A stretch of DNA of 34,679 bases, from contig JASEFS010000035.1 in NCBI GenBank assembly GCA_030018495.1, forward strand, positions 1 to 34,679, given 5' to 3'. Source of the DNA: Deltaproteobacteria bacterium. GTDB taxonomy: Bacteria > Desulfobacterota > Desulfobaccia > Desulfobaccales > 0-14-0-80-60-11. Both the position numbers and the translations under genes were made by a program. The notes below the pieces were generated by a model. It was not told where the DNA came from and did not search any database. It saw nothing but the letters and a program-made list of their open reading frames with translations. Below are positions 20,309-24,467 of this stretch, in pieces (the first letter of the stretch is position 1; each line of letters starts with the position of its first letter).

Positions 20309-20477
20309 CTTCCAACTCCTTTCAACTTCTATAATTCCAATTTACCATATCATAAAGAGCCGCGGTTGGGCCGCGCCGGCATAGAAAAGTTGCCCAAGAG
20401 ACATTCGGCCTGACCGGGGAAGTGATTGTTTTAGCGGTTATTAGCGGGTAGAATTGAAAAGGAGGGGAAACGCGGTC

Positions 20478-21224
20478 ATGGAACAGCTTTCGCAGCAGGA
20501 AAAAGACCTGATCCGGGAAAAAATTATGGAAAAGTACGACCGGGTGGCGTTGTCCCCCGGCGGCTGCTTCCGTTATCCCATCGGCCGGGAGGGCGTCAGG
20601 GCGCTGGGCTATCCGCCGGAGTTGTGGCAGGATCTGCCGGATGATGTCCTGGCCTCCTTCTGCGGGGTGGGTAACCCCTTCAGCCTGGGGTCTGTCCAAC
20701 CGGGCGAGGCGGTGCTGGACATCGGCTGCGGGGCCGGGTTTGACGCGTTCGTGGCCGCCAAATTGGCAGGCCCCCAGGGCCGGGTGGTGGGCATCGATAT
20801 CACCCCCGCCATGGTGGCTAAAGCAAAAGAGCACTTGCGGCGGGTCCCTGTGCCGCAGCTTGTTTTCCAAATGGGCGAAGCCGAGGCCCTGCCCTTCCCC
20901 GACCGGGACTTTGACGTGGTCATTTCCAACGGGGTCCTGAATCTCACCCTGGACAAGGAAAAAGCCGTGGGTGAGATTTACCGGGTGTTGAAACCCGGTG
21001 GTCGGGCCATGCTGGCCGACATGGTGCTGGTGGAGGCTTTGCCTCCGGATCGGGAACGCCGGATTGAAAACTGGTACCAGTGAATCGGCGGGGCCATACC
21101 GGGAACGGAGTTCCTGGCCCTTCTGGAGCGAGCCGGATTTAAAAAGGCGAAGTTGCAGGGTTATACGGGCTTCAAGAGCTCGCCCTTTACCGAAGGAGCC
21201 CTGTTTTCTGCCGAAAAGGGATAA
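20478..21224 (+). CDS. ArsM-like SAM methyltransferase, probable selenoprotein (Sec202)
   Basis: The first 201 codons encode a class I SAM methyltransferase resembling arsenite methyltransferase: GYPPELWQDLPDD, then CGVGNPF, motif I VLDIGCGAGFD and the acidic GIDITPAM. The frame then meets TGA at 21081-21083, but the same frame continues for 46 codons as IGGAIPGTEFLALLERAGF and on to a SPFTEGALFSAEK ending, which is exactly the normal C-terminus of this family, before a TAA at 21222. The TGA falls where ArsM/AS3MT enzymes carry the arsenic-binding Cys of (E)C(L/I)GGA. A SECIS-like hairpin follows. I therefore read a 248-residue protein with selenocysteine at 202. The ATG at 20478 has AAGGAGG upstream. 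A nonsense mutation or sequencing error is the alternative. Confidence 0.7.
21091..21120 (+). promoter_or_regulatory. SECIS-like hairpin for UGA recoding
   Basis: GGGCCA (21091-21096) pairs with TGGCCC (21115-21120), and GGAAC (21102-21106) pairs with GTTCC (21110-21114), with a one-sided five-base bulge between the stems. The apical loop is GGA, so it begins with the two guanines typical of bacterial SECIS loops. The loop starts 24 nt after the TGA at 21081-21083, inside the usual window of about 16-37 nt. Confidence 0.6.
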
Positions 21225-21240
21225 AGTCGGAGATTTTAAA

Positions 21241-21260
21241 GCACAAGCGGACGCCTGTGC
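21241..21260. repeat. Imperfect copy of the GCACAGGCG hairpin repeat
   Basis: GCACAAGCG-GA-CGCCTGTGC lies 17 bp after the methyltransferase stop codon. It matches the perfect copies at 11321 and 34631 with one stem mismatch. Confidence 0.5.
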
Positions 21261-21397
21261 CACTTGCCATTGACGGATTATTGCACTTCCGTGGGTCTTC
21301 TCCTCTGCTGTTATTTGCACCCTGAGGTTTCCTTAAGAAACAGACCGGGGCGCACCCCCAAAATGGAAAGAGGATATTTTGATACTTTGCTTTCCTT

Positions 21398-21417
21398 CTC
21401 TCCCCCTTAGGGGAGAG
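21398..21417. repeat. CTCTCCCC/GGGGAGAG palindromic hairpin
   Basis: An 8-bp perfect stem around CTTA in the gene-free stretch 21225-21473. The surrounding GGTGAGGGG context recalls a dispersed palindrome seen in many bacterial genomes. No T run follows directly, so terminator function is doubtful. Apart from this and the repeat at 21241, I see nothing else in the stretch. Confidence 0.6.
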
Positions 21418-21473
21418 GATTGAGGTGAGGGGGGTTGAAAGGACTTCCTTGTCCGCTGTATCCGCTGCGGAGC

Positions 21474-23318
21474 TTAGCGTCTTAACCCATCGAAACCCAT
21501 GCCCGACCCGCCGCCGAATGAACCGGGACTCCGTCCCTGCCCTCCCGCGCCTCTGCCGGAGAAGGACCTGATAGGTGCACCGGGCGACTGGAGGGAGCGG
21601 CCGCTCCTGCCCGGAACCGATTGCAAGCCCTGCCTCGGCTGAACCTGAGGCAAGGGTGTTTGCCTGATTGCCGGGCTGCGGCCTTGGGGAACCGTCCTGA
21701 GTTGCGGCCTGGCGGGCACGGTTTGCTGGACCGGGGGCTGGGGCTGGAGCCGGAATTGCTGCTGCCGCCGCAATTGCCGCTGCTCAAGCTGCCGTTGCAA
21801 CTGAATCTGCTCCTGCTGCCGCTGCAATGATTCGAACCGCCTCTGCTGGCGCTGCTGCAGGAGCCGCTGTTGCTCCCGTAATACCTCCTGCTGTCGGAAC
21901 ACCTCCTGTTGCCGCAAGGCCTCCTGCTGTCGAAGCTGAGGCTGAAGAACTTGTTGCCTCTCCTGCGCCCGCCTCTGGATCAGACGCTGCTGCCCTTGTT
22001 CCATGATGCCGGTCTGCTCCTGCCGGCGCTGCCGCAGGGTTGGCGAAGGAATGCCGGATGAGGGCGTTCCCCGCAATATCTCCGTTTGACGGCCAGGGAC
22101 GGCTACACCCGCGGGCGCGGGACGGATGATCTCAATCACGCGCGCCCCGGCTTCCTCACGCCGCTCCAGCGTCGGGGCCTGTCTGGCGGCGGGTGGGGAT
22201 GGAGACGGGGCCGACAACCGGGGCAACGGCGCTTCGGCAACGCGAGGGGCAGTTCTTGCCACGGCTCTTTCAGGAAGACTCATGCCTCTGACCCCCTTCA
22301 GTGCTTCCGGTCCCAACCGGTTGCGGTGGGGCAAAGCAATGGCTCGGGGAATCTCCCGACTCACCCGGGGGAGATTGACCGCCACCCGGACGGCATCGGG
22401 CCTGAGCAGGTTGGCCTCGGCAAGTTTTCGGTCCTGAACAGGAGTGACCGCAAACCGCTGACCCTGCAAAACCGGCGCGGGCACGATCCGGCGGATGAAC
22501 GGCTGGCTCGCAAGGACTTGGTTGGGCGGCAGCACATTTTTCAGGTTTCTGAAGTGAACATCCTTAACAAACTGATTGATGACAATGATATTGATGCCCG
22601 CCACCCGGGAGATAAAAGGAAATGAGGGGCCGAAGGCGAAAAAGGCGTTGGGCGCAAAGCTCGAGAAGAAAATATCGGGTAAGAAGTAGGTCCTGAAGGC
22701 CAGAAAGGGGCTCCACAGAAAAGGGGCCAGGCAGCCGCAGTTCCAGTAGGAGTAGGCCGGAAGGTAGGGTTGGCCGAACCCCAGAAGAAAGCTGGAAGCA
22801 GGAGAAAACGTCCAAAAGGGCGGCGTGAGCAGGTCATAGAGCGGCGCGCCGGGATAATATCCCGTTTCCGGATAAAAGGCAGGCACGGGCTCATAATCGG
22901 GTGGGGGCAGCGGCGCCCAGCCGATGTACTCGTCGCTGGTACGCCACACCGCGGTGGAGGGGTACCAGGTGCTGCCCGGCGACCAGACCCAGCCGTATTC
23001 AATGGTGGGGAACCAATTGCCGTAGTGGTAGGTGGCCCACCCCCAGGGCTCCTCGGTTTCGAACACCCAGCCCGCTTCGGTGGGCACCCAGCGGCCGTTG
23101 AGGTACGGGCGCCAGTCTTCGGAGACCCCGGTGGGAAACCACACCGGCCCGTATTTGCCGTAGTCGATCCATTTGCCGTAAGGCGCCAGGGCTTCGTAAA
23201 ACAAGGCGAAATCCTGCACCTCGCCGGTTTGGCTCAACGCCGGAGTCAGGCCGAACCCCAGGACCAGGGTCAGAATCCCCAGCCCGACAAAGAGTTTTGA
23301 AGCTTGTTTTTGCAGCAT
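21474..23318 (-). CDS. Secreted DUF6600-type protein with Gln/Arg-rich C-terminal region
   Basis: This is a 614-residue exported protein. Residues 1-29 form a signal peptide (basic start, hydrophobic core FVGLGILTLVLGFGL, cleavage after PALS). Residues about 36-150 are Trp/Tyr-rich with repeated Y-G-x-W and W-x-P motifs (YGKWIDY, YGPVWFP, GWVWSPG), resembling the DUF6600 domain. A second hydrophobic, aromatic stretch spans about 155-245. From about 425 to 560 it is dominated by Gln and Arg (LRQQEALRQQEVFRQQEVL and similar), likely a long charged coiled coil or disordered tract, and it ends in a Gly/Ser/Arg-rich tail. It follows prfB by 32 bp on the same strand. Function unknown; an envelope or surface role is likely. 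Confidence 0.75.
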   Translation of the reverse strand: MLQKQASKLFVGLGILTLVLGFGLTPALSQTGEVQDFALFYEALAPYGKWIDYGKYGPVWFPTGVSEDWRPYLNGRWVPTEAGWVFETEEPWGWATYHYGNWFPTIEYGWVWSPGSTWYPSTAVWRTSDEYIGWAPLPPPDYEPVPAFYPETGYYPGAPLYDLLTPPFWTFSPASSFLLGFGQPYLPAYSYWNCGCLAPFLWSPFLAFRTYFLPDIFFSSFAPNAFFAFGPSFPFISRVAGINIIVINQFVKDVHFRNLKNVLPPNQVLASQPFIRRIVPAPVLQGQRFAVTPVQDRKLAEANLLRPDAVRVAVNLPRVSREIPRAIALPHRNRLGPEALKGVRGMSLPERAVARTAPRVAEAPLPRLSAPSPSPPAARQAPTLERREEAGARVIEIIRPAPAGVAVPGRQTEILRGTPSSGIPSPTLRQRRQEQTGIMEQGQQRLIQRRAQERQQVLQPQLRQQEALRQQEVFRQQEVLREQQRLLQQRQQRRFESLQRQQEQIQLQRQLEQRQLRRQQQFRLQPQPPVQQTVPARPQLRTVPQGRSPAIRQTPLPQVQPRQGLQSVPGRSGRSLQSPGAPIRSFSGRGAGGQGRSPGSFGGGSGMGFDGLRR

Positions 23319-23350: not shown

Positions 23351-24467
23351 TTAAGCCTGCTTCTCCTCCGGCAGGAGGAGGTAGGCCTCCACAAAGGGGT
23401 CCAGATCGCCGTTCAGCACCGCGTCCACGTTGCCTTCTTCGTGAGAGGTGCGATGGTCTTTAACCAGGCGGTAGGGCTGGAGCACGTAAGAGCGGATTTG
23501 GCTGCCCCAGGCGATGTCCTTCTGGGTCTCCTGGATTTCCGCTTTCTTTTCTTCCCGCTTGCGCTTTTCCAGATCGTAAAGGCGGGCCCGGAGGACCTTC
23601 ATGGCCAGTTCCCGGTTGCGGTGCTGGGAGCGCTCCGACTGGCTGGTCACCACGATGCCGGTGGGCAGGTGGGTGATGCGCACCGCGGAGCTGGTCTTGT
23701 TGACGTGCTGGCCCCCGGGGCCGCTGGCGCGAAAGGTGTCGATCCGCAAATCATTGTCATTGATGGCGACTTCGATGCGCTCATCCACCTCTGGAAGCAC
23801 CTGGACCGCGGCAAAGGAGGTGTGCCGACGGCCGCTGGCGTCAAAAGGGGAAATGCGCACCAGGCGGTGAATGCCGTGCTCGCTCTTGAAACGGCCGTAA
23901 GCGTGGGGACCGCTGGCGGTAAAAGTAACGCTCTTGACCCCGGCCTCATCTCCCTCCAGCAGGTCAATGGTCTCGGTTTTAAAACCCTTGCTTTCAGCGT
24001 AGCGCAGGTACATGCGCAGGAGCATCTCGGTCCAATCCTGGGCCTCGGTGCCGCCCGCGCCCGCATGGATGGTGATAATGGCGTTCTTGTCGTCGTCCTC
24101 TCCCGTCATGAGAAGCTGGAGTTCCCAATCCCGGAAGGTGCGCTCCAATTCAGTCAGCTCGGAAGCCACCTCCTTCAGAGCCCGGGCGTCTTCTTCCTCC
24201 ACAGCCAGATCCAGGAGGATTTCCAGATCCTCCACCTGCTTTTCCCGCCGGTGGTAGTCCTCCACTGCGGCCAGCAGAGCCGAGCGTTCTTTAAGAACTT
24301 CCGCGGCCTGGGCGACGTCATCCCAGAAGCCGGGTTTGGCCATCAGTTCGTCCAACTGCTGTAATCTCTCTTGCTTGCCGGTCAGATCAAAGATGACCTC
24401 GAAGAAGGGCGAGCTTGTCCTTAAAGTGGCTTATTTTCGCCCTGACTTCAGCAACATCGGGCAGCAT
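23351..24467 (-). CDS. prfB: Peptide chain release factor 2, programmed +1 frameshift
   Basis: RF2 releases the peptide at UGA and UAA stops. The main frame (ending at 23351) holds the stop-codon recognition motif SPF in RISPFDASGRRH and the catalytic SGPGGQHVNKT. The normal N-terminus lies in another frame: it starts at the ATG at 24467 (MLPDVAEVRAKISHF, then LLRGHL) and reaches CTT-TGA at 24387-24392. A +1 shift on CTT reads GAT next and gives HLDLTGKQERLQQ, leading into MAKPGFWDD. A Shine-Dalgarno-like CGAGG just before the CTT is the usual stimulator. The protein is about 371 residues, typical of RF2. The shift autoregulates synthesis: low RF2 slows termination at the UGA and favours shifting. 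GGAGGT precedes the ATG. Confidence 0.95.
24387..24401 (-). promoter_or_regulatory. RF2 programmed frameshift site
   Basis: Read on the minus strand: a CGAGGT purine-rich element, CAT, then CTT TGA T. This is the same architecture as E. coli prfB (internal Shine-Dalgarno, slippery CUU, in-frame UGA). Confidence 0.92.

Follow-up and report, generated by a model that had tools for sequence, protein, structure and literature searches.

The window, by which we mean the whole analysed stretch of 34,679 nucleotides, carries on its forward strand a methyltransferase reading frame that starts with ATG at 20478, runs for 201 codons to a lone in-frame TGA and continues for 46 sense codons to a TAA at 21222-21224. 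This is the arrangement that the original prediction had described, and the C-terminal peptides quoted there were found in the product. The features of the locus are:

20460-20465, forward strand: putative ribosome-binding site AGGAGG, 12 nt upstream of the ATG, proposed from the sequence
20478-21224, forward strand: gene for a predicted selenocysteine (Sec)-containing SAM methyltransferase with ArsM fold, 248 amino acids, Sec being residue 202
20661-20663, forward strand: Cys62 (in FCGVGNP), a possible second ligand, found in 24 of 24 members of the close Sec group and located two residues off the column of CmArsM Cys72
20667-20669, forward strand: Val64, which aligns with Cys72 of CmArsM (lost ligand)
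20931-20933, forward strand: Gly152 (in SNGV), which aligns with Cys174 of CmArsM (lost ligand)
21081-21083, forward strand: TGA, predicted to be read as selenocysteine 202, in the column of CmArsM Cys224
21084-21221, forward strand: 46 codons downstream of the TGA, with coding constraint judged from the substitution pattern relative to relatives
21099-21117, forward strand: bacterial SECIS hairpin of 8 bp including one G-U pair, with the stem formed by 21099-21106 and 21110-21117 and the loop GGA at 21107-21109

No sigma-70 promoter match was detected at the methyltransferase gene. Comparison of the gene with 16 close relatives yielded substitution rates for the three codon positions of 0.25/0.17/0.43 upstream of the TGA and 0.23/0.24/0.50 between the TGA and the TAA of the window gene, whereas beyond this TAA the rates were 0.80/0.78/0.65 and the excess at third positions was gone. 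The presence of this excess before and after the TGA and its loss past the TAA indicate that the protein is under selection as far as this stop codon. Such constraint argues against the TGA being a genuine stop codon or a recent nonsense mutation followed by a relic or chance frame, as do the presence of a TGA at the position of codon 202 in every close relative, the covariation of the SECIS hairpin and the Sec machinery of the genome (see below). Decay of the gene does occur in the lineage, as another genome of the same genus (G001) has a decayed copy, but for the window gene we regard termination at the TGA as very improbable. Conservation of the TGA among relatives likewise means that it is not a lone sequencing error, a possibility that the original prediction had raised.

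The window genome (3.46 Mb, 99.97% complete) contains the entire set of genes for selenocysteine insertion, which the original prediction had proposed to search for: selA (604 bits), selB (373 bits), the tRNA-Sec gene selC (73 bits; ARAGORN agrees and assigns the anticodon tca) and selD (387 bits, with an in-frame TGA of its own) all scored above their curated cut-offs. In a search of 395 genomes of the phylum, the 24 best-scoring sequences apart from the window gene itself, which reach down to 44-46% identity, each had exactly one TGA. Within the family, the methyltransferase gene was found in 18 of the 22 genomes, and all 22 copies contain the TGA. More distant relatives have Cys at this column (26 sequences) or again TGA, so that the alignment of homologs gave the result anticipated for a Sec codon. 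A search of plasmid DNA for relatives produced no match, and scanning the contigs of other genomes revealed a single distant Cys relative, L021. What is expected of a bacterial selenoprotein, namely selA, selB, selC and selD in the genome and an in-frame UGA that is conserved and matched by Cys in homologs, was thus found.

Decoding of the UGA by general readthrough or as Trp or Cys instead of Sec is hardly credible, considering that tRNA-Sec and SelB are encoded in the genome and that a correctly spaced hairpin conforming to all four bSECIS constraints (PMC13188914) occurs only in genes with TGA. In addition, prfB has the usual RF2 frameshift site, indicating that termination at UGA is normal in the window genome. 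The prfB gene itself lies in the window on the reverse strand (23351-24467), with its ATG at 24467 and an in-frame CTT TGA at 24392-24387 before the main frame continues; this frameshift site of the usual programmed type is a second recoded TGA within the window.

The hairpin downstream of the TGA had been described with stems of 6 and 5 bp; the hairpin and its GGA loop are real, but it consists of one 8-bp stem, begins 15 nt downstream of the UGA, has a predicted energy of -10.2 kcal/mol and places the apical loop 23 nt from the TGA. We used the published bSECIS constraints (PMC13188914) as criteria, and relatives were scored with limits on the loop that approximate those of the published model; the hairpin of the window gene agrees with the published constraints. 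Among 20,000 synonymous recodings of the window gene, 159 produced a hairpin of like kind, place and energy. Hairpins of -7.5 kcal/mol or below were present in 37 of 40 genes with TGA versus none of 26 genes with Cys, a distribution far outside what chance would produce. Folding energy of the whole stretch was also considered as SECIS evidence, was not significant and was replaced by the position-constrained test. As the folding energy of 57 nt in the window was ordinary (z -0.24), the evidence for a SECIS element lies in position and conservation and not in bulk stability. The main group provided 22 distinct sequences; in these, 98.9% of the pair cells were paired, the loop-closing pair being A-U, G-C or, in the window gene alone, C-G. 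The covariation score of these 22 sequences was equalled by none of 500 shuffles and dropped when the partners were slid against each other. The encoded protein sequence accounts for part of the hairpin's conservation, though not for the compensatory changes in paired bases. Several groups have unrelated hairpin sequences at a nearly identical location. Rfam reported nothing relevant at the methyltransferase locus. With the Sec machinery, TGA or Cys in homologs and the conserved hairpin, the Sec reading of the original prediction is upheld: judged from sequence evidence, it is close to certain that UGA 202 of the window gene specifies selenocysteine and that the encoded methyltransferase is a genuine selenium-containing protein.

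The 248-residue readthrough product matches SAM methyltransferase families in Pfam and, at the sequence level, solved arsenite methyltransferases (5evj, 3.7e-28; CmArsM, 2.5e-22). The predicted model (pLDDT 93, pTM 0.92) most closely resembled CmArsM (4fr0, Z 25.5 over 205 residues, 2.1 A) and the As-bound structure 6cx6 (Z 25.1), and the best match to a fold other than ArsM had a Z of 21.7; by the predicted model, the window protein is of the ArsM fold. The TGA aligns with the Cys of the ECLGGA or CLGGA-type motif in solved ArsMs, precisely the replacement that had been predicted. The three best NCBIfam matches are all named selenoproteins. The best of them, the methyltransferase/UXPK-star double selenoprotein NF047649, scored 408.8 bits over residues 3-247 and thereby missed the cut-off of 460. 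It has the Sec column in common with the window protein, and its flanking genes are shared with the close relatives, but it has a second Sec in a C-terminal UxPK-stop tail, while the window protein ends with SAEKG and has neither a second Sec nor an xPK tail. The ArsM/AhpD selenoprotein NF041537 (375 bits, cut-off 510) and the ArsM/DUF2284 selenoprotein NF041536 (320 bits, cut-off 575) contain homologous Sec methyltransferase domains, but the window protein lacks AhpD and DUF2284. In a 2026 review (PMC13188914), arsenite methyltransferase is listed as 'NF008823, UxxG, one Sec' with reference to Fomenko et al. 2007; for the three fused families, which it also includes, the review refers to Haft and Tolstoy 2025. 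Because Sec at the ArsM column is thus already catalogued in NCBIfam and in reviews, the assignment as a new selenoprotein has to be withdrawn.

In close relatives, the protein is extended at its C-terminus by a segment that includes a further Sec, e.g. GGAUAPK-stop, or by an AhpD domain followed by GGAURR-stop. The window protein has a single Sec and lacks the tail with the second Sec that its closest relatives possess, and no relic of an AhpD domain or a UXPK tail was found 3' of the TAA in the region 21201-21900. Its sister in the tree, L049 (support 99/89), carries both AhpD and tail, for which reason the tree, rooted at its midpoint only, is more simply read as loss of the tail along the lineage of the window protein. 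Standalone relatives with a single Sec (L054, L056, L061, L062 and L063) resemble the window protein in length, in having one TGA and no tail, and in their SNG active site; they are 45-52% identical to it and none reaches any NCBIfam cut-off. The related copy in the same genus mentioned above (L034, G001 C151) has lost most of its 5' part and contains one frameshift, but retains the TGA before EGGAIPG and a CPAPGST-TGA-LRRR tail. A different architecture was seen in L076 (1206-2300), L077 and L075, where the Sec methyltransferase is fused to DUF2284 via a repeated PGGGUP/PGGTUP linker. The frames of L076 and L077 contain four in-frame TGAs each, one in the methyltransferase and three in the linker, whereas the review gives two Sec for the ArsM/DUF2284 family (PMC13188914).

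In nine of 16 close relatives, a flavin reductase gene is located directly upstream of the methyltransferase gene (upstream sequence is missing for some of the others), and in L118 it is only four bases away from the methyltransferase start codon. The orthologous flavin reductase of the window genome (71%) is unlinked and resides on another contig. Genes for an aldehyde dehydrogenase, a release factor and cobS are neighbours of the methyltransferase gene both in the window and in relatives, indicating an ancestral origin of the locus itself. Three relatives (L116, L117 and L118) also have, no more than about 3 kb away from the Sec methyltransferase, a gene of the TsoB-type rhodanese/DsbD/thioredoxin family (NF045694; 913 bits for L118 3493-5262), for which the window genome gave no full match.

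In CmArsM, Cys72, Cys174 and Cys224 are required for As(III), and Cys174 and Cys224 for MAs(III); the C174A and C224A variants were inactive on MMA and iAs (PMC3877260). Among 66 relatives, the two partner columns of Cys224 switch together. Both Cys are kept in 36 sequences, which have Cys (25) or Sec (11) at the third position, and both are lost in 30 sequences including the window protein, with Sec in 29 and Cys in one of them. All 30 members of the ligand-loss set have Gly at the Cys174 column and a residue other than Cys at the Cys72 column. A single supported branch (100/99) divides the two sets in the midpoint-rooted tree, so that the 30 sequences do not represent 30 independent events; as judged from the alignment and tree, the ligands were lost in a single ancient event and the resulting state was then strongly conserved. 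On this tree, Cys and Sec must have been exchanged three times or more. The only Cys version of the SNG-type methyltransferase that we found, L021 (4980-5720) from Campylobacterales, sits on a long branch and has its Cys at column 61 instead of 62. A separate Sec group, L082-L092, has kept the complete arsenic site and possesses its own UCUCACC-type SECIS hairpin. The ArsM acceptance criterion in PMC5552862 asks that Cys be present at three or more of the four positions 44, 72, 174 and 224 of CmArsM; the window protein, which would thus not be accepted, has Val at 72, Gly at 174 and Sec at 224, and even if Cys30 is counted as the equivalent of position 44, it reaches two of four at most.

The naming of the protein as an arsenic methyltransferase in the original prediction therefore holds for the fold, which is closest to ArsM, but is doubtful for the function, as Val64 and Gly152 occupy the positions of Cys72 and Cys174. 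Two of the three cysteines that bind arsenic have disappeared from the group, so the label 'arsenite methyltransferase' probably misdescribes what the window protein does, with the caveat that Cys62, two residues from the Cys72 column, could replace Cys72. A canonical arsenite methyltransferase with Sec in place of Cys224 would have to bind As(III) through Sec202, the displaced Cys62 and either water or a small thiol, and methylate it for detoxification. That the best structural matches are ArsMs would fit this function, as would the Acr3 arsenite exporter encoded in a genome that has no other ArsM-like protein at a comparable level, and the sister group L082-L092, in which Sec occupies the column while all other Cys are intact. 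NCBI also names the fused relatives of the clade 'arsenite methyltransferase', and an ArsR-family regulator lies near one relative. We nevertheless consider a canonical arsenite methyltransferase unlikely, since the Gly at the Cys174 column and the absence of Cys from the Cys72 column extend to all 30 members, and Cys62 is missing as well in four remoter ones (L067, L068, L074 and L081). While fold, SAM site and Sec or Cys at the Cys224 column are shared with ArsM (NF008823/PRK11873, including the Sec form UxxG, and the CmArsM/AS3MT structures), the window protein scored only 197.5 bits against the NF008823 cut-off of 263, compared to 317 bits for the canonical Sec-ArsM L082, and no ars genes adjoining the methyltransferase gene were found within the window.

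The explanation that we favour, and consider well founded as a whole, is a selenoprotein of the ligand-depleted SNG clade of ArsM-fold proteins, with a site centred on Sec202, possibly together with Cys62, for a soft lone-pair substrate. SelB and tRNA-Sec would decode UGA 202 as selenocysteine, guided by the hairpin that begins 15 nt downstream. The product would be a SAM-dependent methyltransferase that has kept one of three arsenic ligands, in the form of Sec. Sec202, alone or with Cys62, would position the substrate beside the SAM methyl group so that transfer can occur in line. This substrate could be an organoarsenical requiring one or two ligands, a metalloid other than arsenic, or a compound of a chalcogen. 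The site or the product would be reduced in trans; in close relatives the reductant may be the fused Sec tail or AhpD domain, in addition to the adjacent flavin reductase. Re-reduction of site or product, as metalloid methylation requires, would fit the fused redox-active tails and the coupled flavin reductase of the relatives.

The window gene adds a member to a previously known kind of selenoprotein, and the prediction that led to it is a sound observation with a testable correction to the presumed chemistry. The superfamily splits cleanly into proteins with a full three-ligand arsenic site, containing Cys or Sec, and proteins that have lost two of the three ligands and almost always have Sec (29 of 30). 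This opens to direct test the question whether a lone selenol can replace a trithiolate site or whether the substrate has changed. The chances appear evenly balanced that the proteins of the SNG clade, whether or not they carry fused Sec tails, form a separate enzyme class and are not arsenite methyltransferases, using one selenol and at most one thiol to bind a different substrate, e.g. an arsenical that is already methylated, some other metalloid or a compound of a chalcogen. If so, the present names of the clade would be wrong. For metagenome surveys, the caution is that SNG-type genes should not be counted as arsenic methylation genes.
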